Shown piece after piece: positions 13,413-58,106 of a stretch of 64,000 bases of DNA. The position numbers and the translations under genes are program-made. Position 1 is the first letter of the stretch; each line of letters starts with the position of its first letter. The notes beneath the pieces were generated by a model. It was not told the origin of the DNA, made no database searches, and saw only the letters and a list, made by a program, of their open reading frames with translations. The stretch is from Streptobacillus ratti (GTDB taxonomy: Bacteria; Fusobacteriota; Fusobacteriia; Fusobacteriales; Leptotrichiaceae): positions 1 through 64,000 of the forward strand of contig NZ_LKKW01000004.1 in the NCBI RefSeq assembly GCF_001891165.1, written 5' to 3'.

Positions 13413-16076
13413 CTATTGTTTTACTTGTTCTACAACAAATGCTTCTATTATATCTCCTGCTTTTATATCATTGAAATCTTTAATTCCTATACCACAATCT
13501 TGTCCAATACTTGCTTCTTTAACATCATCTTTATATCTCTTAAGTGATGCAATTTCACCCTCATGAACAATAATACCGTCACGTAATAATCTAATCTTAG
13601 ATTGACGAGTAATTTTACCTTCAATTACTAATGAACCAGCAATATTACCTACATTTGAAATTTTGAATACTTCTCTTACTTCTAATCTTCCATTATATAT
13701 TTCCTTATATTCTGGATCTAACATACCTTTCATAGCTTTTTCAAGATCTTCTGTAACATGATATATTACATTATAGTTTCTAATTTCTACTCCAGATTTT
13801 TCTGCTTCTGTTCTCGCTGTATTTGTTGGTCTAACACTAAATGCAATAATAATTGCATTTGATGCTGCCGCAAGCATTACATCTCCCTCAGTAACTGCTC
13901 CAGCACTTGCTTGAATAATATTCATACTTATCTTATCATTTGATAATTTATTAATTGATTCTTTAAGTGCTTCAGCTGATCCTTTAGAATCTGCTCTAAT
14001 AATACATTTTAATTCTTTTAATTGTTGATCTTCTAATTCTTTAGATAAACTTTCAAGTGAAATATGTTTTTTCTTATTAAGTTCATCTTTTTTCTCATTT
14101 TTAAAATCTTCAACTATTTTCTTAGCTTGTTTATCATTATTTACACAATATAGTAAATCTCCAGCTTCAGGTATTTCATTAAATCCTGTAATTTCAACTG
14201 GTTGTGAAACTCCAGCTTTAGTAATCTTATTTCCTCTATCATCTAACATAGATCTTACTCTACCATAAGATGACCCAGAAACAAATATATCTCCTATTTT
14301 TAATTCTCCCTCTTGAATTAAAATGTCTGCAACTGGTCCCATTTGTACATCTAATCTTGATTCAACTACTATAGCCTTAGCTCTCTTTTTGTGATTTGCT
14401 TTAAGCTCCATTATTTCTGAAGTTAAAAGTATTGTTTCTAGTAGGGCATCTAAATTTAACTTTTGTTTTGCTGAAATTTCTACCATTTCAGTATTTCCTC
14501 CCCATTCTGGAGAGATTAAACCATGTTCAAGTAATTCTTGTTTAACTTTCATTACATTTGCACCAGGTTTGTCTATCTTATTAATAGCAACTATAATAGG
14601 CACATTTGCTTCTTTAGCATGCGAAATTGCTTCAATAGTTTGTGGTTTAACGCCATCATCTGCTGCAACTATTAATATAGAAATATCTGTTATATTCGCT
14701 CCTCTTACTCTCATTTCAGTAAAAGCCTCATGTCCTGGAGTATCTATAAATGTTATTTTTTGTTTATTCCATTCAACTTGATAAGCACCTATTCTTTGTG
14801 TAATACCTCCAGCTTCACCATCAATCACATTTGTATGTCTTAGTGCATCTAATAATGAAGTTTTACCATGATCTACATGTCCCATAATTGTTATTACCGG
14901 AGCTCTTAATTCTTTATCTTCTTCTTTATCTTCTATTTCAAGATTATATTTTTCTCCATAAGATACTTCTATTATTTCTTCTTTTTCAACTATTACATTA
15001 TACTCAATAGCTATTTCTTCTGCTTCTTCAATGTTTAATATAGCATTAGCAGTATACATCTTACCTTGCATAAAGAATTTTTTAATTATGTCAGATGAAT
15101 TAATTCCTAATTTTTCAGCTAATTCTTTAATTGATATTTCTTGAGGTAGAACAACTAGTCCAACTCCACCCTCTTCATCTCTTATTACTTCTGATTTTAC
15201 AACTTTTTCTTTTTTCTTGATTTTTTTCTTTTTATCTTCTTTTCTAAAATCATCACGTAATTCTTTTAATTTTCTTTCTTCATCTTTTGTTTTTTTATCA
15301 TTTTCATATTTCTTTTTCTCAAATTTAGATTTTAATTTAGAGTTTTTAGATTTAACATCATTTTCCATTGTTGGAATTTCTATTATAGCTTCTTTTTCTT
15401 CTTTAGCGTGTGTTTTAAATGGTTTCTTATTATCATCATTTCTTCTATCTTTATTAAATGGTCTTCTTTCTCCATTTTCAAAAGGCTTTCTTTCTCCAAA
15501 ATTTTGATTATTTCTTTTCTCAAAAGGTTTTCTTTCTCCATTATTGCTAAAGTTTCTATTGTCTCTATTTACTCTATTATCCCTATCTTTATTAAAGTTT
15601 TCTTTATTTTCAAACTTAGGTCTTTCTCCTCTAAAATTATTTTTTCTTTCATTATTATTTTTTTCAGAAAAATCTCTATTTTCTCTATTAAAAGGTTTTC
15701 TTTCTCCGAAATTTTGATTGTTTCTTTTTTCAAAAGGTTTTCTCTCACCAAAATTCTGATTATTTCTTTCTGGTCTTTCACCTTTATTTTCATTTTTATC
15801 AAATCTATCATTTCTAAATTTATTATTATTATTATTATTTTTATTAAATTTATTGTTATTTCTGTTATTAAATATTATTTTTTCACCAATTACTTCTTCT
15901 TTTTTAGAAGTATTTTTTTCAACTGATTTCATTGGATTTAATTTATTTTCTATATCTTTTATTTCACTTTCACTTAAAGCTGATAAACTTGATTTATCAT
16001 ATCCCATTGTTTTTAATTTTGTAATAAGATCATTAGTTGATTGTCCAATTTTCTTAGCAAACTCATAAACTCTCAC
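13413..16076 (-). CDS. infB: Translation initiation factor IF-2
   Basis: GTPase that places initiator tRNA on the ribosome. It starts with GTG, directly after the ylxR stop, with a strong GGAGGTGG. An IF2-N domain (VYEFAKKIGQSTNDLITKLKTMG) is followed by a long low-complexity Asn/Arg/Phe-rich region (about residues 75-215) containing copies of NNQNFGERKPFEKR. A second IF2-N domain (EISIKELAEKLGINSSDIIKK) leads to the G domain: GHVDHGKTSL, DTPGHEAF, NKID. Domains II-IV complete 887 aa. The repetitive linker is the only unusual part. Confidence 0.98.
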   Translation of the reverse strand: MRVYEFAKKIGQSTNDLITKLKTMGYDKSSLSALSESEIKDIENKLNPMKSVEKNTSKKEEVIGEKIIFNNRNNNKFNKNNNNNNKFRNDRFDKNENKGERPERNNQNFGERKPFEKRNNQNFGERKPFNRENRDFSEKNNNERKNNFRGERPKFENKENFNKDRDNRVNRDNRNFSNNGERKPFEKRNNQNFGERKPFENGERRPFNKDRRNDDNKKPFKTHAKEEKEAIIEIPTMENDVKSKNSKLKSKFEKKKYENDKKTKDEERKLKELRDDFRKEDKKKKIKKKEKVVKSEVIRDEEGGVGLVVLPQEISIKELAEKLGINSSDIIKKFFMQGKMYTANAILNIEEAEEIAIEYNVIVEKEEIIEVSYGEKYNLEIEDKEEDKELRAPVITIMGHVDHGKTSLLDALRHTNVIDGEAGGITQRIGAYQVEWNKQKITFIDTPGHEAFTEMRVRGANITDISILIVAADDGVKPQTIEAISHAKEANVPIIVAINKIDKPGANVMKVKQELLEHGLISPEWGGNTEMVEISAKQKLNLDALLETILLTSEIMELKANHKKRAKAIVVESRLDVQMGPVADILIQEGELKIGDIFVSGSSYGRVRSMLDDRGNKITKAGVSQPVEITGFNEIPEAGDLLYCVNNDKQAKKIVEDFKNEKKDELNKKKHISLESLSKELEDQQLKELKCIIRADSKGSAEALKESINKLSNDKISMNIIQASAGAVTEGDVMLAAASNAIIIAFSVRPTNTARTEAEKSGVEIRNYNVIYHVTEDLEKAMKGMLDPEYKEIYNGRLEVREVFKISNVGNIAGSLVIEGKITRQSKIRLLRDGIIVHEGEIASLKRYKDDVKEASIGQDCGIGIKDFNDIKAGDIIEAFVVEQVKQ
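15460..15790 (-). repeat. Imperfect coding repeats in the IF-2 linker
   Basis: At least four related units of about 14 codons encode (NNQN)FGERKPFEKR-like peptides inside infB. The repeats are visible in DNA as recurring TTCTCCAAAATTTTGATT-like tracts on the plus strand. They lie in the disordered linker between the N-terminal domains and the GTPase, where length variation should be tolerated. Confidence 0.75.
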
Positions 16077-23747: not shown

Positions 23748-25139
23748 TTATGGTGTTGTTTTTGCTATTTGATATAATTTTTCATATTCTTTAGAAGATT
23801 TATCCCAAGAATTATCAATCATCATATTTCTTTTTATAAGTTTATTCCATATATCTTTTTTATCATAATATATATGTTCTGCATATCTTATAGTATTTAA
23901 CATATCATCTGCATTGAAATTTGTAAATGAAAATCCATTACCCTCATCAGTATATTCATTATACGCTATAACTGTATCTCTTAATCCTCCAGTTTCTCTA
24001 ACTAGAGGTATAGTTCCATATCTCATAGCTATCATTTGTGATAGACCACATGGTTCATATCTTGATGGCATTAAAAATAAATCTGAACCAGCATACAATA
24101 AATCAGATATTTCTTCAGAATATCCTATATATGCTTTAAATTTATCCGGATATTTATATTCTAAATATTTATAGTAATCTTCATAATATTTAGAACCTGA
24201 ACCAAGTATTACAAATTGAACAGCATCATGTTTTAATATTTCTTCTATTCTTGAAGATACTAAATCTAATCCCTTACCTTCAACTAATCTTGAAACTAAA
24301 GTAATAAATAAAGTGTCATCTTGTTTAAAATCAAATATTTCTTGAATTTTTCTTTTATTTAATATTTTTTTATCTAAGCTTTCAACATCAAAATTAATAA
24401 TTTTACTATTTGTCATAGGATTATATATATCATAATCTATTCCATTTAAAATTCCATGTATTTGCTTATATGATGTAAGCCATTCTAATCCCTCTGCAAA
24501 ATATGGATATTTTATCTCTTCAGCATAACTAGGACTTACTGTATTAATTACATCTGCAAAAGAAAGTCCTATTTCCATAAAGTTTAAAAAACTACTTTCT
24601 CTTTGATAACCTAATTTATCAAATGAATAATTATTAAATCTTCCTTGATACATTAAATTATGTATTGTAAAAACTACTCTCATATCCCAATAATAGGGAT
24701 CTTGCTTATATCTATTCTTTAAAAAATATGGTAAAGGTCCTGTTTGCCAATCATTACAATGTATAATATCAACTTGTAATCCTATCTTTTTTAGGAAAAT
24801 TAATGTTGCCTCACAAAAAAGTGCATATTGATAATCTTCATCTAAATCACCATATACTTTTCCTCTTTCAAAAAAATTTCTATTTTCTATAAAATAATAG
24901 TTGATTTTATCTTCACCACTATATCTAATTAAATTAAATATTTCTCCATTTATCTCAGTAGTAGCTATAAACTCCATTTTTTCTAAAAATTTAAGAGGAA
25001 TTTTATCATATTTAGGCATGATAACTGAAACATCATGTCCTAAACTCTCCATTTTTTTAGGCAATGCTTGTAATACATCTGCAAGACCACCTGTTTTAAA
25101 AAAAGGATATACTTCTGATGATACATATATAATTTTCAT
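23748..25139 (-). CDS. glgA: Glycogen synthase (ADP-glucose)
   Basis: Extends alpha-1,4-glucan from ADP-glucose. The GT5 N-terminus IIYVSSEVYPFFKTGGLADVLQALP contains the KTGGL ADP-glucose-binding loop. Mid-protein FTIHNLMYQG and the C-terminal SRYEPCGLSQMIAMRYGTIP are family signatures. The length of 463 aa is normal. It lies 14 nt after glgC; together they form the synthesis arm of glycogen storage, driven by the glgC promoter and closed by a terminator. Confidence 0.97.
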   Translation of the reverse strand: MKIIYVSSEVYPFFKTGGLADVLQALPKKMESLGHDVSVIMPKYDKIPLKFLEKMEFIATTEINGEIFNLIRYSGEDKINYYFIENRNFFERGKVYGDLDEDYQYALFCEATLIFLKKIGLQVDIIHCNDWQTGPLPYFLKNRYKQDPYYWDMRVVFTIHNLMYQGRFNNYSFDKLGYQRESSFLNFMEIGLSFADVINTVSPSYAEEIKYPYFAEGLEWLTSYKQIHGILNGIDYDIYNPMTNSKIINFDVESLDKKILNKRKIQEIFDFKQDDTLFITLVSRLVEGKGLDLVSSRIEEILKHDAVQFVILGSGSKYYEDYYKYLEYKYPDKFKAYIGYSEEISDLLYAGSDLFLMPSRYEPCGLSQMIAMRYGTIPLVRETGGLRDTVIAYNEYTDEGNGFSFTNFNADDMLNTIRYAEHIYYDKKDIWNKLIKRNMMIDNSWDKSSKEYEKLYQIAKTTP

Positions 25140-25153
25140 ATAACTCCTATTCT

Positions 25154-26407
25154 CTATTTCTTAATTGTTTCTCCACTATGTATATAGTTACCCTCATTTA
25201 ACATATGAACTTTTGAAAAAATTCTAACATTTCTTTCAACTATTGTACTATTACCTAACTTGGAACTTTTTCCTATTACACTTATTCCTTTATATAATAA
25301 GTCGGGTTTTTCAATATTTGTAGTATAATCATCACCATGTCCTATTAATGAATTTTTACCTATATATACATTTTTATCTAATATTACCGTATCTAAATGT
25401 GTATTTTCATCTATGTATGTATTAGAAAATATAATACTATTTCTAACTGTAGCTCCTTTTCTAATAGTAACTCCAGGACCTAGTACTGAATTTTCAACTC
25501 TACCCTCAATTTTACAACCATTACAAATCAATGAATTTAATACACTTCCTGTAACACCTATTCTCACCGGTGCCATATCTTCACTTCTTGTATAGATTTT
25601 CCAATTAGGGTCGTATAAATTTATACCAATTTCTTCAGATTTTTTTATTAAATCTAAATTTGCCTCTAAATATGAGTCATATGTTCCTACATCCATCCAA
25701 TAAGAATCATAATAATGTAAAAACACTCCTCTTTGATCTTCAATTAATTTAGGTATTATATGTTTACCAAAATCTAAATCAGGAATATCACTTTCTTCAA
25801 TATACTTAATTAATGTTTCAGTATTAAATATATAAATACCCATAGAAGCAAAATTGCTCTTAGGATGTTCTGGTTTCTCTTCAAAACTTAATATTTTATT
25901 ATGTTCATTTACTTCAAAAATACCAAATCTTGAAGCTTCTTCATAAGGGACGTTAATTGCAGCTATGGTTAGTTCTGCATTATTTCTTTTGTGTTCTTCT
26001 AACATCCATAAATAATTCATCTTGTATATATGATCTCCAGATAAAATTAAAACATATTTAGGTGCTTTACTTTTAATAAATGCTAAATTTTGTCTTATTG
26101 CATCTGCAGTACCCTCATACCATGATTGACCTTTTAAAGTTTCGTGTGGTTGTAATAATGTAATGCTAGAATCTCTTCTATCAAAATCCCATGGCTTACC
26201 TGAACCTATATGCTCATTTAATGATAAAGGTAAATATTGTGTCAACAAAGCAACATCATATATACCTGAATTAGAACAATTACTAAGTGTAAAGTCTATT
26301 ATTCTAAATTTACCAGCAAATGGAACACTTGGTTTAACTCTTTCTTCTGAAAGAATATCTAGCCTAGAGCCACGGCCACCAGCTAAAATCATTGCCAATA
26401 CTTCCAT
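25154..26407 (-). CDS. glgC: Glucose-1-phosphate adenylyltransferase
   Basis: Forms ADP-glucose, the committed step of glycogen synthesis. The N-terminus MILAGGRGSRLDILSEERVKPSVPFAGKFRIIDF has the nucleotide-binding loop. GTADAIRQN and a C-terminal left-handed beta-helix of hexapeptide repeats (about residues 300-400) follow. The ATG at 26407 is preferred to a GTG at 26416 that would touch the AAAGG site. Only one GlgC-type subunit gene is present, without the GlgD partner common in Firmicutes. Confidence 0.96.
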   Translation of the reverse strand: MEVLAMILAGGRGSRLDILSEERVKPSVPFAGKFRIIDFTLSNCSNSGIYDVALLTQYLPLSLNEHIGSGKPWDFDRRDSSITLLQPHETLKGQSWYEGTADAIRQNLAFIKSKAPKYVLILSGDHIYKMNYLWMLEEHKRNNAELTIAAINVPYEEASRFGIFEVNEHNKILSFEEKPEHPKSNFASMGIYIFNTETLIKYIEESDIPDLDFGKHIIPKLIEDQRGVFLHYYDSYWMDVGTYDSYLEANLDLIKKSEEIGINLYDPNWKIYTRSEDMAPVRIGVTGSVLNSLICNGCKIEGRVENSVLGPGVTIRKGATVRNSIIFSNTYIDENTHLDTVILDKNVYIGKNSLIGHGDDYTTNIEKPDLLYKGISVIGKSSKLGNSTIVERNVRIFSKVHMLNEGNYIHSGETIKK

Positions 26408-26438
26408 AACTTTCACATCCTTTATTTGTATATATTAA

Positions 26439-31560: not shown

Positions 31561-34017
31561 TTAAAAAATATAGTTTCTAGGTAAACAAGGTTTAATATTC
31601 CATATATTTTCAGCATAATCTTGTATAGTTCTATCTGAACTAAATTTACCAGCATTTGCTATATTTAATAATGATTTTCTTAACCATGTTTTTTGATCTT
31701 TATAATCTTTACTAATTTTTTCTTGTGCTTTTCTATAATCAGAGAAATCTTTTAATACAAAGTATACATCTGGTCTATTACCCTCAACACCATTTAGTAA
31801 TGAATCGTATAATTCTCTGAATATTCCTGTATGAGAATCATCATATGTTCCATCAACTAATTGTTCCATTACTTTCTTAAGACCTTCTACTGTTTCATAA
31901 TCGACTCTTGGATCATATTTACCATATCCCTCAAGTCTTAAAACTTCATCGGCTTTTAATCCAAATATATAGGCATTTTCCATTCCAACTTCTTCAACTA
32001 TTTCCACATTAGCACCATCTAATGTTCCTAAAGTTAATGCACCATTTAACATAAATTTCATATTACCTGTACCAGATGCTTCTTTCCCTGCTGTTGATAT
32101 TTGTTCTGAAATATCAGATGCTGGGAATATTTTTTCAGCAAGTGAAACTCTATAATTTTCTAAGAATACAACTTTAATTTTATTATTAATACTTGTATCA
32201 TTATTAATTACTTCAGCAACAGTATTAATTAATTTAATAATACCTTTAGCTCTTCTATATCCAGGAGCAGCTTTTGCACCAAATATAAATGTACGAGGTG
32301 TTACATCTAATAATGGATTTTCTTTTAATTTATTATATAAATCCATAATATGTAAAACATTTAATAATTGACGTTTGTATTCATGTAATCTCTTAACTTG
32401 AACATCAAAAATTGAATTAATATCTACTTCTATACCTGTTGTATCTTTAATATATTTAGCTAATTTAATCTTATTTTCTTTCTTAATATCAGATAATTTA
32501 TTTAATACATTTTCATCATCTAAATATTTTTCTAATTTTTTAAGTTCTTTTAAATCAACTATCCATTTATCTCCAATTAATTCAGTAATTAATGAAGCAA
32601 GTTCTGGATTTGAATTTAATAACCATCTTCTTTGTGTAACTCCATTTGTTTTATTTTGGAATTTTTCTGGATATAATTCATACCAATCTTTTAATTCTTG
32701 ATTTTTTAGAATTTCTGTATGTAATTCAGCAACTCCGTTTACAGCATGTGAACCAACTATTGCAAGCCATGCCATTTTAACTTTGTCATCTCCTATTATA
32801 CTCATTCTTTTAATTTTTTCATAATCTCCATTAATTTTTTTAGAAAGCTCTATTAAAAATCTTCTATTAATTTCTTCAATTATTTGATAAATTCTTGGTA
32901 ATAATGGTCTAAATATATTTATTTCCCATTTTTCTAAAGCTTCTGATAAAATTGTATGATTAGTATATGCAAATACTTTTTTACAAATTTCCCATGCTTC
33001 ATCCCAACTTAGTTTTTCTTGGTCAAGTAATATTCTCATTAATTCTGGAATTGCAACCACTGGGTGAGTATCATTTAATTGTATTGCAACTTTTTCTGGT
33101 AATATTGCAAAATTATTTCCAAATGTTGCTTTATGTCTTCTGATAATATCTTGTAAAGATGCAGATGTAAAGAAAAATTGTTGTTTAAGTCTTAAAATTT
33201 TTCCTTCTCTTTCTGTATCATTTGGATATAATACTCTTGAAATATCTTTAGCTCTAACTTCTTTTTCAGATGCTAAAATATAGTTTTGAGAATTAAATAA
33301 TTTTAAATCAAATCCCTCGGGTGATCTTGCTTCCCATAATCTTAAAGTATTAATAACATTATTTCCATAACCTATTACAGGAACATCGTATGCAACAGCT
33401 AATACATTTTCTGTATTTACTCTTTTAAAATATTCTTTTCCTACTTCATCTTTATGGATTTCAATATCTCCTCCGAATTTAACTTCAAACACTCTGTCTA
33501 TTCTTTTTACAGACCATGGAGTTCCATACTGTTGCCAATCATCTGGATATTCAACTTGGAATCCATTTTCTATTTTTTGTTCAAACATACCATATCTATA
33601 TCTTAATCCATATCCATGTCCTGGCAATCCTAAAGTAGCAAGTGAATCTAAGAAACAAGCTGCAAGTCTTCCTAATCCACCATTTCCAAGTCCAGCATCC
33701 ATTTCATAATCTTCTAATTTATTAATATTAAGTCCTAATTCTTCTAATACTTCTTTCATAACTTCATTATATCTTAAATTAATCAAGTTATTACTCATAT
33801 ATCTTCCCATTAAAAATTCTGCTGATAAATAATACATTTGTTTAACTTGATCTTGTTGTCTAGTTTTTTTAGTATTATACCAATGTTCAGTTATTTCATC
33901 CATAGTTGCTCTTGCAACTGCATAATATATTTCATATTCTTTTGCATCATCTAAAGTTTTACTATACTGTCTTCTTAAAGATAATAGAATTTTATCTTTC
34001 AATATCTTTTTATCCAT
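31561..34017 (-). CDS. glgP: Glycogen/starch phosphorylase
   Basis: Releases glucose-1-phosphate from glycogen. GT35 signatures: MYYLSAEFLMGR, DAGLGNGGLGRLAACFLDSLATLGLPGHGYGLRY, QLNDTHPVVAIPELMR, VQVKRLHEYKRQLLN, and the PLP-binding Lys in EASGTGNMKF. The length of 818 aa is standard. The ATG at 34017 has GGAGGAA upstream; a TTG at 34029 is inside that site. It is a single-gene unit with a strong promoter (34045-34073) and two terminators. It is about 5 kb from glgCA, not in the same operon. Confidence 0.98.
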   Translation of the reverse strand: MDKKILKDKILLSLRRQYSKTLDDAKEYEIYYAVARATMDEITEHWYNTKKTRQQDQVKQMYYLSAEFLMGRYMSNNLINLRYNEVMKEVLEELGLNINKLEDYEMDAGLGNGGLGRLAACFLDSLATLGLPGHGYGLRYRYGMFEQKIENGFQVEYPDDWQQYGTPWSVKRIDRVFEVKFGGDIEIHKDEVGKEYFKRVNTENVLAVAYDVPVIGYGNNVINTLRLWEARSPEGFDLKLFNSQNYILASEKEVRAKDISRVLYPNDTEREGKILRLKQQFFFTSASLQDIIRRHKATFGNNFAILPEKVAIQLNDTHPVVAIPELMRILLDQEKLSWDEAWEICKKVFAYTNHTILSEALEKWEINIFRPLLPRIYQIIEEINRRFLIELSKKINGDYEKIKRMSIIGDDKVKMAWLAIVGSHAVNGVAELHTEILKNQELKDWYELYPEKFQNKTNGVTQRRWLLNSNPELASLITELIGDKWIVDLKELKKLEKYLDDENVLNKLSDIKKENKIKLAKYIKDTTGIEVDINSIFDVQVKRLHEYKRQLLNVLHIMDLYNKLKENPLLDVTPRTFIFGAKAAPGYRRAKGIIKLINTVAEVINNDTSINNKIKVVFLENYRVSLAEKIFPASDISEQISTAGKEASGTGNMKFMLNGALTLGTLDGANVEIVEEVGMENAYIFGLKADEVLRLEGYGKYDPRVDYETVEGLKKVMEQLVDGTYDDSHTGIFRELYDSLLNGVEGNRPDVYFVLKDFSDYRKAQEKISKDYKDQKTWLRKSLLNIANAGKFSSDRTIQDYAENIWNIKPCLPRNYIF

Positions 34018-34044
34018 GATTTCCTCCAATAATAATATATTTAC

Positions 34045-34180: not shown

Positions 34181-34210
34181 AAAAAAAGATACCCAAATTT
34201 TGGATATCTT
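34181..34210 (-). terminator. Terminator after the 1383-aa outer-membrane protein gene
   Basis: AAGATATCCA-AAATT-TGGGTATCTT followed by TTTTT on the minus strand. Confidence 0.85.
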
Positions 34211-34218
34211 AATTTTAT

Positions 34219-37200
34219 CTACCATTTATATTCAAGTCCAGTTCTAATATTAAAATTAACTTCTTTATAATCCTTATTTTTAAAATATACAGGTAATTCT
34301 CCACTTATTCTTGCTTTTAAATTATGAATTAATCTATATGTCATTTTAACCTCTGGAATTATAGTATTCTCAAATGAATAATGATTACTTCCATATAACC
34401 TAATATCTTTTAATATTATCTTATCTGTAGATTCATACTTTCCAATTAATTTATATCTCATTCCAAGTGATATATCTACATTTTTAGTTGCATTAAAATT
34501 ATACCCTAAATATGTGTTTAAATTTACATTTATCTTCTTTGCATGTAAATAAGTATTTTCCACTATACTCTTATTTTCTGATACTTTATTTGGTATAGAA
34601 AGTATTTCTTTTAATTCAGTTTCGGTTATTTTTGCATAATTAAGTTCATAAAATTTCTTTCCTGGTACATAAATTTCATTACCATCTGCATTTTTCTTTT
34701 TAACAAAGTCTTTTAAAGATTGTAATAAATCATTTTCATTCATGTCTACTTTATTATTCATGTTATTTTGAATGTCAGTATCATTTATAGAATTTTTATT
34801 ACTTTCAACTACTATAACTTTTGATTTAGTTTCTATCTTTGTTGTTTCTTTCTTTATATCTATTAATTTTGTATCATTATACCCTAATACTAAATTTAAA
34901 TTAAAGTTAATACCTTTTTCTTGTCTATATTCTGTTTCTATATCAATATCATATTTTTCATGTTCTAAAGTTTTAATTTCATTTTTTGATGTTGTTTTTT
35001 CCTCTGTTTGTACATCAACGAAGTAATTATATACTTTCCGAGAAAAAAAGTGCCACCAAGGGAAATTTTTTTGAGTATTCCATGCAAAAGTTGTATTTTT
35101 AGTACTTACATTACTATTGACTTCTTTTTTCTCTATAGAACCACTTACTTTAGTACTATCAGCTTTAATATTTACTCTAAAATTACCCTCTTCTTTCTTT
35201 ATATCTAAAAATGGTGTAATTATATACTCTAACTTATCATCAAACGCTACATTGGATAAAGCATTATTTACATGGCTATATTCATTACTATTACGTTTTT
35301 TTAATATACCTAAAACATTAGGCTTTAATTCATCCCCAAGAATATCTTTTCTAGGTTTAAAAACATATTTAAATCCTACTACTGTTGAAAATTCAGTCCC
35401 TTTTGAATATTCCAATCCAACTCTTGTTGATATATCTGAATCATCCTTAGATATCATAAATCTTGGCTTAATAGGTAAATTAACTATCAATGGATTTAAA
35501 GATACATTAAAGTCTATATTTTTATCATTTCCCTTTATATCTCCTCTTAAAAAAGTAAGATCTGCCATAGCTTTATATGAGAAATAATAGCCTGGTTCAT
35601 TACCTAATACTGCTCCACCCTCAATATTACCAGATGTTTTAAATTTAATTGGATTTTCTTTAGTAAATATTATATCTTTATAACTATCATCTATTAAATA
35701 TTTAATTTCTCCTGAATACATAGCCTTTAATCCAGATGGTGAGAAATTTCTAAATCCTATTGGTAATTCAAAATTAGTAGAAAATATTATATTATCATAT
35801 GGTCTATATAACATAGTAATTCTTGGAGATACTATATTATACATCTCATACATAGATGTTACTGCACCACTTTCCACAGTTTCTATATAGTCTGTTTGAT
35901 GTATATCTCTTTTTAGTTTAGTTTTATTTTCACCTTTAAGTTTATTGTATTCTTTATCAACTAATTCTTTTTCTGTTGTTTGAGATGTTATTATAGGGTT
36001 TTTATCTTTACCTATAGGATTATTATCTTTATCTCTTTTAGCAATATTCCACTTTACATCTTTGTCATCTTTTAAAATATGTTTTGGATTAATCCAACCA
36101 TATTGACCAATATGTCTTATACCTAATAATAAATTAAATCTTTTTGTTGCTGGTATATTAAAACCAAAATATGTATCTGTATTTAAATCAATAGTATTGT
36201 ATACATATTTTAATTCATTTTCATTTACTTTTTTATTATCTTTTTTCTTAATTAAATCATTTTCAGAGAATGATAATCTAACTTTACTACTAAAGTCTAA
36301 AACTCCTTTTTTATATATTGCATCAATATCTAAATGATGAGCTTTTTTTGAATATGAATATTTTTCTGCATCAACTTTAACACTATCATTTACTAAAAAA
36401 GAAAGACCAAATTTATTAATTCTATCAAAATAACCTAAATCTATCCTTATTTTAGGTGAGTATTTTGCCTTATTATCATTTAAATCAATCTCAGAAAAAA
36501 TATTTTTTAACTCTTCTTCATATTTTAATATATTTTTTCCTTTTTCACTTTGATGTATATATAGTCCTCTTAAAATATCAAGACTCTTAACTTCATAAGG
36601 ATTTTTAATAGTCTCTTGTATTATATCAAATTCAGTATGTACAGTATCTCTAATTCTTTTATACCAAAATATATCTTTTATAATATTCCAAGTACCAAGT
36701 TTAGAAATATTTTGAATTGGATCTATTTTATGTTCCCTTAATAATCCAGCTATTAAATAATCTCTAATATCATTGTCAAAAGTATGAAATCCATTTTTTT
36801 TCAATAAAAAACTATCAGAATCTTTAGGATTGGGCAATAAATTTCCTCCTGAAGATTGAGGCTGAGGACTAGAAACATTTCTTTTTCCTTTTAAATAAGA
36901 AACAGTAGCACTAGAAGCTCTATATACATCTGGAAGTTGAGGGTTTCTTATACCGTCATATAGATAGTCTGGACCTAAGTCATCAAAATTTATATTAGAA
37001 TAATCAAAATTTTTATAATATCCAGGTAACAGATATTCAAAATCTTTTTGAACTTGAGTCCAAAGACCTACCTTTGAATATTTTCTATCAGGATCTATCC
37101 CTAATTTTTTATATATATCTTTTGCTATCTTTTTTGCTATACTATTAAACTGATTTTTATTTTCTACTTCTGCCATTGTACTTTTATATTTAATTGCAGG

Positions 37201-38370
37201 CCACCAAAAATCTGTTATAGCTGCTTTTTTATCTTTTTCAAAAATCTTTACTATTTCTGAAATATTTTTAAAATATGGATTAGAATGTATTTCATCAAAT
37301 ATACTCTTACTAACATATCTAATCAAAGAATCCCCATAAAGTGAACCTGAATTATATCCAAGTATTCTTATTGTTCCCTTTCTACCAGATACTTCAGCTT
37401 TTGATAAATCTGCATAATCCTTATCATATTTATCTGCATTAATCATATCATCTTTATTATATTCACTTTTTAATGTCCATTTTTTAAAATATTCTATTTT
37501 ATTATAACCGGGTACAACATATTTAATCTTATCTAATTCATTATTTAGATTATACGATGATTCATTATGATTAAGTAAAACAGAAACACTAGAATATATA
37601 TTGTTACTTCTATATCTAATAGTTGGTCCATAATCTAAATTTTTATTTTGACCATAAAAATCAAAAGAAACAGATACTTTACTATCTGGAATAGGATTAA
37701 CACTAAAATTATAGTCTACAACCTTATTTTTCAAAACTTTTTCTGCATCTGTTTTATCCAAATCTATTTTTTCAGAACTCTCTCCCTTGATATAGTAATT
37801 AATTTCTCCATTAATATATTTATTATCAGAAATTAATGAAAGTTTTATTTTATCTATATCATTATTACTTAAAAACTTATCATATGAAAGACCTTTACCA
37901 ATTACATCAACCTTTATTCCTAAACCAAAGTAGTTTTCTTTTAATTTAATTCCAAGTCTTTTTCTAAGTTCTATATTTTTTGATAAATATTTTATAGCTA
38001 ATTTTACATCTCTTTCTGTTGGACTATAGCTAGGTTTATAATAATTGTATCCTGAATAATAACTAGGTTGTGGCAAATAATTAGTACTTCTTGGACTTAT
38101 ATTACCAACATTTTGACTAGTAAGCATAGCACTTCTATAATTATAATTTAATTTTACATAATCTGTATATACTCTAGGTCTAACTAAATCTATTAATTCT
38201 GGTAATGATCTTATAGTACTTTCTACTCCATCTACACCAGATGATGTATCTATACCAAAACTAACTTCCCCCTCTATTTTACTCTTTTCTTCAATTGAAT
38301 ATGTAATTGAAGATAATAAGAATAAAAATAGTAGTTTTTTATTTATAATCTCTTTAATATTAAATATCAC
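34219..38370 (-). CDS. Large outer-membrane beta-barrel protein of unknown function, internally duplicated
   Basis: No family I can name. A signal peptide (KKLLFLFLLSSITYSIEE) opens 1383 aa; the chain ends in GLEYKW, the aromatic C-terminal signature of outer-membrane barrels. Alternating beta-strand patterns dominate. The last 100 residues (NTYLGYNFNATKNVDISLGMRY ... MTYRLIHNLKARISGELPVYFKN) match a segment near residues 724-890 (TYFGFNIPATKRFNLLLGIRH ... MLYRPYDNIIFSTNFELPIGFRN). Another repeat pair is IDPDRKYSKVGLWTQVQKD and IDPIQNISKLGTWNIIKD. The start is GTG with AAAGGG 6 nt upstream; an overlapping ATGTGA start-stop precedes it. A solitary gene with its own promoter and terminator. An adhesin, porin-like or assembly role is possible but unproven. 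Confidence 0.75.
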   Translation of the reverse strand: MIFNIKEIINKKLLFLFLLSSITYSIEEKSKIEGEVSFGIDTSSGVDGVESTIRSLPELIDLVRPRVYTDYVKLNYNYRSAMLTSQNVGNISPRSTNYLPQPSYYSGYNYYKPSYSPTERDVKLAIKYLSKNIELRKRLGIKLKENYFGLGIKVDVIGKGLSYDKFLSNNDIDKIKLSLISDNKYINGEINYYIKGESSEKIDLDKTDAEKVLKNKVVDYNFSVNPIPDSKVSVSFDFYGQNKNLDYGPTIRYRSNNIYSSVSVLLNHNESSYNLNNELDKIKYVVPGYNKIEYFKKWTLKSEYNKDDMINADKYDKDYADLSKAEVSGRKGTIRILGYNSGSLYGDSLIRYVSKSIFDEIHSNPYFKNISEIVKIFEKDKKAAITDFWWPAIKYKSTMAEVENKNQFNSIAKKIAKDIYKKLGIDPDRKYSKVGLWTQVQKDFEYLLPGYYKNFDYSNINFDDLGPDYLYDGIRNPQLPDVYRASSATVSYLKGKRNVSSPQPQSSGGNLLPNPKDSDSFLLKKNGFHTFDNDIRDYLIAGLLREHKIDPIQNISKLGTWNIIKDIFWYKRIRDTVHTEFDIIQETIKNPYEVKSLDILRGLYIHQSEKGKNILKYEEELKNIFSEIDLNDNKAKYSPKIRIDLGYFDRINKFGLSFLVNDSVKVDAEKYSYSKKAHHLDIDAIYKKGVLDFSSKVRLSFSENDLIKKKDNKKVNENELKYVYNTIDLNTDTYFGFNIPATKRFNLLLGIRHIGQYGWINPKHILKDDKDVKWNIAKRDKDNNPIGKDKNPIITSQTTEKELVDKEYNKLKGENKTKLKRDIHQTDYIETVESGAVTSMYEMYNIVSPRITMLYRPYDNIIFSTNFELPIGFRNFSPSGLKAMYSGEIKYLIDDSYKDIIFTKENPIKFKTSGNIEGGAVLGNEPGYYFSYKAMADLTFLRGDIKGNDKNIDFNVSLNPLIVNLPIKPRFMISKDDSDISTRVGLEYSKGTEFSTVVGFKYVFKPRKDILGDELKPNVLGILKKRNSNEYSHVNNALSNVAFDDKLEYIITPFLDIKKEEGNFRVNIKADSTKVSGSIEKKEVNSNVSTKNTTFAWNTQKNFPWWHFFSRKVYNYFVDVQTEEKTTSKNEIKTLEHEKYDIDIETEYRQEKGINFNLNLVLGYNDTKLIDIKKETTKIETKSKVIVVESNKNSINDTDIQNNMNNKVDMNENDLLQSLKDFVKKKNADGNEIYVPGKKFYELNYAKITETELKEILSIPNKVSENKSIVENTYLHAKKINVNLNTYLGYNFNATKNVDISLGMRYKLIGKYESTDKIILKDIRLYGSNHYSFENTIIPEVKMTYRLIHNLKARISGELPVYFKNKDYKEVNFNIRTGLEYKW

Positions 38371-38409
38371 ATGCTACCCTTTCGTTATCTATTAATCAAA
38401 CACTTCTAT

Positions 38410-38438
38410 ATTATAAAGTAAAAAAAATGAATTTGCAA
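38410..38438 (-). promoter_or_regulatory. Promoter of the outer-membrane protein gene
   Basis: TTGCAA (38433-38438), 17 bp, TATAAT (38410-38415) on the minus strand, 40 bp ahead of the GTG start. Confidence 0.78.
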
Positions 38439-56639: not shown

Positions 56640-58106
56640 TTATCTACCATATATTTCAGTTATGTGTGCAATTGTTGATGCTAAATCATCGTTTAATTCC
56701 CAACCATTTAATCTCCATTGCCAGTTTCCACTTGCAAGTCCTGGAGTATTAATACGTGCAAATTCTCCTAAATTTAAATAATCTTGCATTGGTATTATTG
56801 CAGTTTCAGCAACAGATCTTAAAGCAAGTCTAATCATTGAATAAACTATATATGAATCATCACTTACATTTAAGTAATCTCTTACCTCTCCTTTTTGCAT
56901 ATCATTAAGTTTAAAATACCATGAATTTGTTGTATCATTATCATGTGTTCCTGTATAAACTACAGTATTTTTTTCATAATTATGTGGTAAATATTCATTT
57001 TCAGGATCTTTATCAAATGCAAATTGTAAAATTTTCATTCCTGGAAATCCTGCACTTTCTTTTAATTCTACAACTTCATCTGTAAGTATACCTAAATCTT
57101 CTGCAATAATATTAATCTCTCCTAAAGATTTTTTTATAGCATTAAATAAATCAATTCCTGGTCCTTTTTCCCATTTACCATTAATAGCTGTAGTTTCTCC
57201 ATAATTAACAGCCCAATATGATTCAAATCCTCTAAAATGATCTATTCTTATTATATCATATAGAGAAAGGTTAGCTTTAACTCTATCTATCCACCATTTA
57301 TATCCTGTTTCTTTTAATTTATTCCAATCAAATAATGGATTCCCCCATAATTGCCCAGTTGCTGAGAAATAATCAGGTGGAACTCCTGCAACCTTAACTG
57401 GATTTCTATCTTTATCAAATAAGAATATTTCTGGATTTGACCACGCATCTGCTGAATCCATAGATACAAATATTGGTATATCTCCAATAATTTCAATCCC
57501 ATTTTGATTAGCATATGATTTAACAGATTTCCATTGTTTAAAAAATATATATTGTAAAAATTTTTGATAGTTAATTTCATCAGCTAATTTAACTTTATAT
57601 TCCTCTATTGCATTATTTTCTCTATTTTTTAATTCATTTGGCCAATTTGACCATGATTCTCCATTAAAATATGTTTTAAGTCCAGCAAATAGAGAATAAT
57701 TACCTAACCAATAATCATTTTCTATATTAAATTTAATAAAATCCTCATTTTCTATATTAAACTTCTCAAAAGCACTTCTTAATATAGGTAATTTATTTGT
57801 ATAAATCATTCCATAATCAATATTTTCTTTATTATCTCCAAAATTTGTATCAAGTACTGAATAATCTAAATATCCCTCTTGAACTAAAGTTTCTAAATCT
57901 ATTAAATATGGATTACCTGCAAATGCAGAAAAACATTGATATGGAGAATCTCCATAACCTGTAGGTCCTAATGGGAATATTTGCCATAATTTTTGTTTAG
58001 ATTTTTTCAAAAAATCAATAAATCTATATGCTTCAAATCCCAAAGTACCTATTCCCTCTTTTCCAGAAAGTGATGTAGGATGAAGTAAAATCCCTGCTTT
58101 TCTCAT
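56640..58106 (-). CDS. malQ: 4-alpha-glucanotransferase (amylomaltase)
   Basis: Rearranges maltodextrins, working with GlgP in glycogen breakdown. GH77 signatures: RKAGILLHPTSLSGKEGIGTLG, QIFPLGPTGYGDSPYQCFSAFAGNPYLIDL, nucleophile Asp in IIRIDHFRGFESYWAV, acid/base Glu in IIAEDLGILT, third carboxylate in GTHDNDTT. The length of 488 aa is standard. It heads the unit malQ-rarA-DMT-dusA from the promoter at 58139-58166. Confidence 0.97.
   Translation of the reverse strand: MRKAGILLHPTSLSGKEGIGTLGFEAYRFIDFLKKSKQKLWQIFPLGPTGYGDSPYQCFSAFAGNPYLIDLETLVQEGYLDYSVLDTNFGDNKENIDYGMIYTNKLPILRSAFEKFNIENEDFIKFNIENDYWLGNYSLFAGLKTYFNGESWSNWPNELKNRENNAIEEYKVKLADEINYQKFLQYIFFKQWKSVKSYANQNGIEIIGDIPIFVSMDSADAWSNPEIFLFDKDRNPVKVAGVPPDYFSATGQLWGNPLFDWNKLKETGYKWWIDRVKANLSLYDIIRIDHFRGFESYWAVNYGETTAINGKWEKGPGIDLFNAIKKSLGEINIIAEDLGILTDEVVELKESAGFPGMKILQFAFDKDPENEYLPHNYEKNTVVYTGTHDNDTTNSWYFKLNDMQKGEVRDYLNVSDDSYIVYSMIRLALRSVAETAIIPMQDYLNLGEFARINTPGLASGNWQWRLNGWELNDDLASTIAHITEIYGR

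Follow-up and report, generated by a model that had tools for sequence, protein, structure and literature searches.

The window analysed here, a stretch of 64,000 nucleotides, comes from contig 4 of a Streptobacillus ratti genome that totals 1.43 Mb in 146 contigs. Its longest ORF, at 34219–38370 on the minus strand, is the largest gene in the window, as the sequence-only reading had stated. It runs as a single frame of 1383 codons without a break and encodes the long form of a putative barrel protein, 1383 residues in length, from a GTG start. The ortholog at the same site in G031, a congener that is almost certainly Streptobacillus moniliformis, is likewise without an ATG; its GTG start lines up with that of the window gene, and AACGAAAGGG precedes the GTG in both. 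Reading the adjacent sequence, we find a ribosome-binding-site-like AAAGGG (38377–38382, minus strand) 6 nt before the GTG. A promoter-like TTGCAA-17-TATAAT (38410–38438, minus strand) lies 40 bp upstream of the start and is weak evidence, because shuffled sequence yields such consensus matches equally often. Directly 3′ of the stop codon is a terminator-like hairpin followed by a T run (34186–34210, minus strand), the sole one in 5.3 kb, where shuffles yield 0.4. On the same strand, genes for triosephosphate isomerase (TPI) and an HU-type protein lie upstream of the window gene, the glycogen phosphorylase gene lies downstream of it, and no partner gene is evident in this neighbourhood. Also in the window, glgA, glgC, glgP, and a 4-alpha-glucanotransferase gene are dispersed and do not form one operon (23748–26416, 31561–34029, and 56640–58106). 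The part of infB encoding the N-terminal part of IF-2 carries imperfect 42-base tandem repeats of NNQNFGERKPFEKR-like units (15478–15557 and 15690–15769), a possible typing marker.

The encoded protein opens with a hydrophobic, signal-peptide-like stretch (residues 1–25; 38296–38370, with all features of the protein given on the minus strand), its cleavage point placed by eye, and it closes with ...GLEYKW. This agrees with the signal peptide and the barrel-type C-terminal Trp that had been proposed. The N-terminal pattern, again judged by eye in the alignment, is common to all complete family members, and the C-terminal residue is W in nearly all long forms and F in the short forms. A signal peptide together with a C-terminal strand that has an aromatic end is the general mark of an outer-membrane beta-barrel, and we infer an outer-membrane location. 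The first predicted membrane strand (residues 34–46; 38233–38271), taken from the strand scan and alignments, is conserved in long and short forms alike. Alignment and strand scan also delimit an N-terminal beta-rich region (residues 121–286; 37513–38010) with a dN/dS of 0.10–0.37 between relatives. Farther along lie a first copy of an internal repeat (residues 714–891; 35698–36231), an extension found in long forms only (residues 896–1383; 34222–35685), and within that extension the second repeat copy (residues 1267–1381; 34228–34572), which ends near the C-terminal Trp.

The sequence-only reading had assigned the protein a large extra N-terminal part. That part is instead mostly an insert of ~340 residues (residues 286–626; 36493–37515) between two beta-rich parts. 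The evidence is an 888-aa paralog that occurs naturally in G031 (L026:520-3141), is without this segment, and aligns by BLASTP to window residues 129–285, 627–761, and 821–1383. The first 64 residues of the insert form a core (residues 287–350, PGYNKIEYFKKW ... VSGRKGTIRILGYNSGSLYGDS; 37321–37512) that is among the best-conserved stretches of the family, short forms included. The part that follows is variable (residues 351–586; 36613–37320), with a dN/dS of 0.62–0.93. The insert is probably helix-rich, a reading that leans chiefly on the coiled-coil-like insert of one short form. We considered YGDSLIRY as a GDSL-lipase motif and rejected it, since its letters vary in relatives.

At least two internal duplications had been claimed for this protein, and one of them is real. 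Its C-terminal end does repeat an earlier segment: the literal matches are TYFGFNIPATKRFNLLLGIR and TYLGYNFNATKNVDISLGMR, together with MLYRPYDN..ELPIGFRN and MTYRLIHN..ELPVYFKN, at spacings of 490–554 residues across the motifs of the pair. Although BLASTP self-comparison of the single window protein does not detect this pair, family profile–profile comparison (hhalign) matches copy 1 and copy 2 with a probability of 97.8%, an E-value of ~1e-12 (9e-13), and a score of 97. In the controls, reversed profiles reached at most 22% and 60 column-permuted profiles a score of at most 23. Among 170 pairs of 130-residue windows, the top six were all copy 1 against copy 2, and the rest lay at ~20% or below. 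The second claimed pair, IDPxxxxSKxGxW at residues 425 and 549, is a literal match, yet its profile score of 15.0 falls below the permuted maximum of 16.2, its profile probability is 1.3%, and its second site is not conserved in relatives, so that this pair is ascribed to chance. Copy 2 also resembles the C-termini of other, smaller membrane proteins in these genomes (probability 69–95%), whereas copy 1 resembles them weakly, and the proteins with a copy-2-like C-terminus have sub-threshold matches to the OmpA_membrane, Autotransporter, and TonB_dep_Rec barrels. Because reuse of C-terminal strands is generally known among barrels (PMC6340704), we interpret the repeat as a barrel end that was copied, in preference to a unique invention.

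The position of copy 1 is clarified by short relatives of ~930–1070 aa in G028, G029, and G020, which match the first ~885 residues of the window protein and end where copy 1 ends. The window long form runs ~490 residues beyond this point, to copy 2. A profile of the full-length short forms covers residues 11–882 of the long form (99.9%, E 7e-36). Aligned to the C-terminus of the short forms, copy 1 matches along 237 columns (E 1.4e-14), copy 2 along just 57. In a maximum-likelihood tree of the shared part, 14 long forms separate from five short forms with a split support of 100/100. One genome, G020, contains both.

Long and short forms together make up an undescribed family of very large, putative surface proteins in a few animal-associated relatives of the rat-bite-fever bacterium. 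The window gene had been called solitary, which is true of its immediate neighbourhood alone, as a paralog of 55% identity lies in the same genome (G000:C15:13859-17848). In G031 the family occupies eight places, comprising seven full-length copies, one of which has an in-frame stop, and the 888-aa copy; copy numbers such as these are lower bounds where they come from draft genomes. Further members occur in G030, G032, G001, G019, and G020. The earlier failure to recognise a family is borne out, in that nothing lies above the Pfam or NCBIfam cut-off and no relative has a solved structure. The sole Pfam barrel model seen was OMP_b-brl_2, for one relative and below cut-off (E 0.0024). With a family profile built from 19 sequences, 9 of 98 Fusobacteriota genomes were positive, belonging to 4 of the 29 genera searched and all to one taxonomic family, and the remaining 89 genomes gave no match. 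The proposed lineage specificity thus holds across these genomes, with occurrence restricted to a few host-associated Leptotrichiaceae. We found no member on plasmids, and the sole match among viral contigs was a near-identical copy of the G031 ortholog (L057), located beside phage-type genes. Two scans of a collection of genome contigs also gave no match, although these do not demonstrate absence because close records may be missing from it. The layout of autotransporters (type V), in which an N-terminal passenger precedes one C-terminal 12-strand barrel, does not fit: the Autotransporter profile has no match in the family, and beta-rich regions flank the insert on both sides.

Copies of the gene have both exchanged segments and come and gone. 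Three G031 paralogs, at 171, 178, and 347 kb, have exact common blocks of 694, 1056, and 1142 nt within flanks that are 60–85% identical, a pattern that indicates gene conversion; the 347 kb copy lies ~170 kb from the other two. The two copies in the window genome have no common exact run of 60 nt and thus no sign of recent exchange. The gene order TPI-HU-[gene]-glgP is kept in G031, and the site is empty in two of four congeners (G030 and G032), where HU directly adjoins glgP. At these empty sites (L080 and L081), the terminator behind HU and the sequence upstream of glgP are both intact, and neither repeats nor an integrase are seen at the junctions. The window gene is thus present or absent as one cleanly bounded gene between two transcription units. 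In both the G031 ortholog (L003) and the viral-collection record L057, an in-frame stop interrupts the gene at the same place, near codon 122, and the two sequences differ at 4 of 4056 bases. This copy is therefore dispensable in the S. moniliformis-like genome, and intact members exist elsewhere in G031. In L057, an S. moniliformis-like record, phage-type genes, including a primase/helicase-like ORF, directly follow glgP (L057:6928-9053); for this reason, the HU-glgP neighbourhood may be a phage integration site.

The sequence-only reading had recommended comparing strains for variable loops. Comparison between relatives shows variation concentrated in the insert and in two segments of the extension, residues 1086–1139 (34954–35115; dN/dS 0.38–0.65) and 1171–1275 (34546–34860; dN/dS 0.58–0.70). 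Across four comparisons between relatives, dN/dS was 0.38–0.93 in these two segments and the variable part of the insert, and mostly 0.10–0.4 in the beta-rich parts. The exceptions are copy 1, at 0.78 in a pair touched by gene conversion, and the core motif of the insert, at 0.93 in a pair with an interrupted partner. Because dN/dS stays below 1 throughout, we read this pattern as relaxed or diversifying change under overall purifying selection and not as proven positive selection.

Strands were counted with a crude segment scan, for which calibration on 13 E. coli barrels gave a mean absolute error of 3.2 strands; it replaced a hidden Markov strand model that under-counted known barrels. AlphaFold models built from two-row alignments of the window protein and L057 reached a pLDDT of 27 and 28 and were discarded. 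The scan predicts 26–36 strands per full-length member, 1–5 of them inside the insert, with ~16 before residue 895 and ~14–16 after it. This is compatible both with one barrel of ~30 strands and with two barrels, and it does not separate the two arrangements. Two complete, self-closed barrels placed end to end (residues ~30–895 and 896–1383) would suit the near-even division of strands, the existence of short forms that stand alone and end at copy 1, and the likeness of copy 2 to the segments that close other membrane proteins of smaller size. A copied barrel end could also just lengthen one barrel, however, and a limited literature search yielded no natural two-barrel chain. Duplicated OmpX constructs reportedly fold as one larger barrel. 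We think the end-to-end arrangement unlikely, including the version in which the second barrel was a later addition to a one-barrel ancestor whose short form persists in relatives, in one case alongside long forms in a single genome. As for the direction of change, the tree is unrooted and cannot be rooted between short and long forms, so that either gain of the long form or loss to the short form could have occurred. This leaves room for the short form to have arisen from the long by C-terminal loss and not the long by extension. Of the two copies, copy 1 is the better fit to the C-terminus of the short form, but both directions predict as much, and among barrels the gain of strands is reported to be commoner than their loss (PMC6340704). 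Derivation by loss is the less probable course, although it deserves some weight.

Other functions for so large a predicted barrel also have to be weighed. The family could be a set of transport channels, porins or substrate-specific receptors, expanded for nutrient uptake, in which case the variation would reflect substrate or phage pressure and not adhesion. The apparent size of the barrel, the many paralogs, and the gain and loss of copies would all suit such a role. Against it, Pfam gives no match to a TonB-dependent receptor plug or barrel profile in the window protein or its paralogs, the window copy is without adjacent transport genes, and the fastest-changing part is the large insert and not the pore; we regard transport as an improbable main role. 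A further candidate role is that of an export pore through which other proteins or lipids leave across the outer membrane, as with LptD and SprA, two very large single-chain barrels. LptD forms a barrel of 26 strands. SprA has 36 (PMC9581022), and the strand number estimated for the family falls in the same range. LptD and SprA are core export proteins, however, whereas the family is multi-copy, patchy, missing from most of the phylum, and unrelated to them in sequence. One copy is also interrupted in a relative that is nonetheless viable, and we consider an export function highly improbable.

The reading that we favour, and consider reasonably probable, is that the window gene encodes a lineage-specific, recombining outer-membrane beta-barrel surface protein whose likeliest role is that of an adhesin, an antigen, or both. 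Exposed adhesins and antigens show the same pattern of many copies, patchy occurrence, and recombination, in which a conserved beta framework carries a variable insert and variable loops. The closest working analogues, as opposed to relatives, are the Helicobacter pylori Hop adhesins (BabA, SabA, HopQ, and LabA), which are also barrel proteins present in several copies, each with a large exposed domain joined to the barrel; in LabA this domain is helical (PMC8244420). Gene conversion moves segments between Hop paralogs (Talarico et al. 2012, as cited in PMC8244420), and exchange of this kind between paralogs is present in G031 and not seen in the window genome. Unlike the Hop adhesins, the family proteins are about twice as long and carry an internal copy of the barrel end, and comparison of the family profile with solved PDB chains reveals no sequence relation to the Hop head or barrel. 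The copied end itself recalls hairpin amplification and duplicated OmpX (PMC6340704), in which a barrel end is likewise copied within one chain and C-terminal strands are conserved and reused. Folding of duplicated OmpX is reported (Arnold et al. 2007, as cited in PMC6340704); in contrast to these constructs, the extension in the family is natural and ~490 residues long, and the short form survives beside the long in G020.

On the adhesin or antigen reading, the chain consists of a short-form equivalent (the first ~885 residues) and an extension of ~490 residues ending in the second copy of the barrel end, and a fast-changing, probably helix-rich domain separates the first beta-rich part from the remainder. 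The insert and the two variable loops are probably exposed outward, and we infer that the insert faces away from the cell and binds host material. Paralogs swap segments by gene conversion, as in G031, and whole copies are gained and lost at fixed sites, so that segment exchange and copy turnover together would diversify the exposed cell surface. The likeliest use of such a surface, by analogy with the Hop adhesins, would be attachment to host material, evasion of antibodies, or both. According to a 2024 review, virulence-associated genes are not described in sequenced Streptobacillus species, and haemagglutination by S. moniliformis is mentioned there (PMC11609424); the family is therefore a plausible candidate that merits testing.

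Because it lacks the insert, the 888-aa paralog is a natural means of probing the function of that domain. A short barrel protein beside a long form with an extra barrel end provides a natural comparison for how barrels gain strands, and the long/short pair, found within one genome in G020, lets one ask whether one chain can hold two barrels. For the sequenced Streptobacillus species themselves, the family provides a specific candidate for the variable surface.
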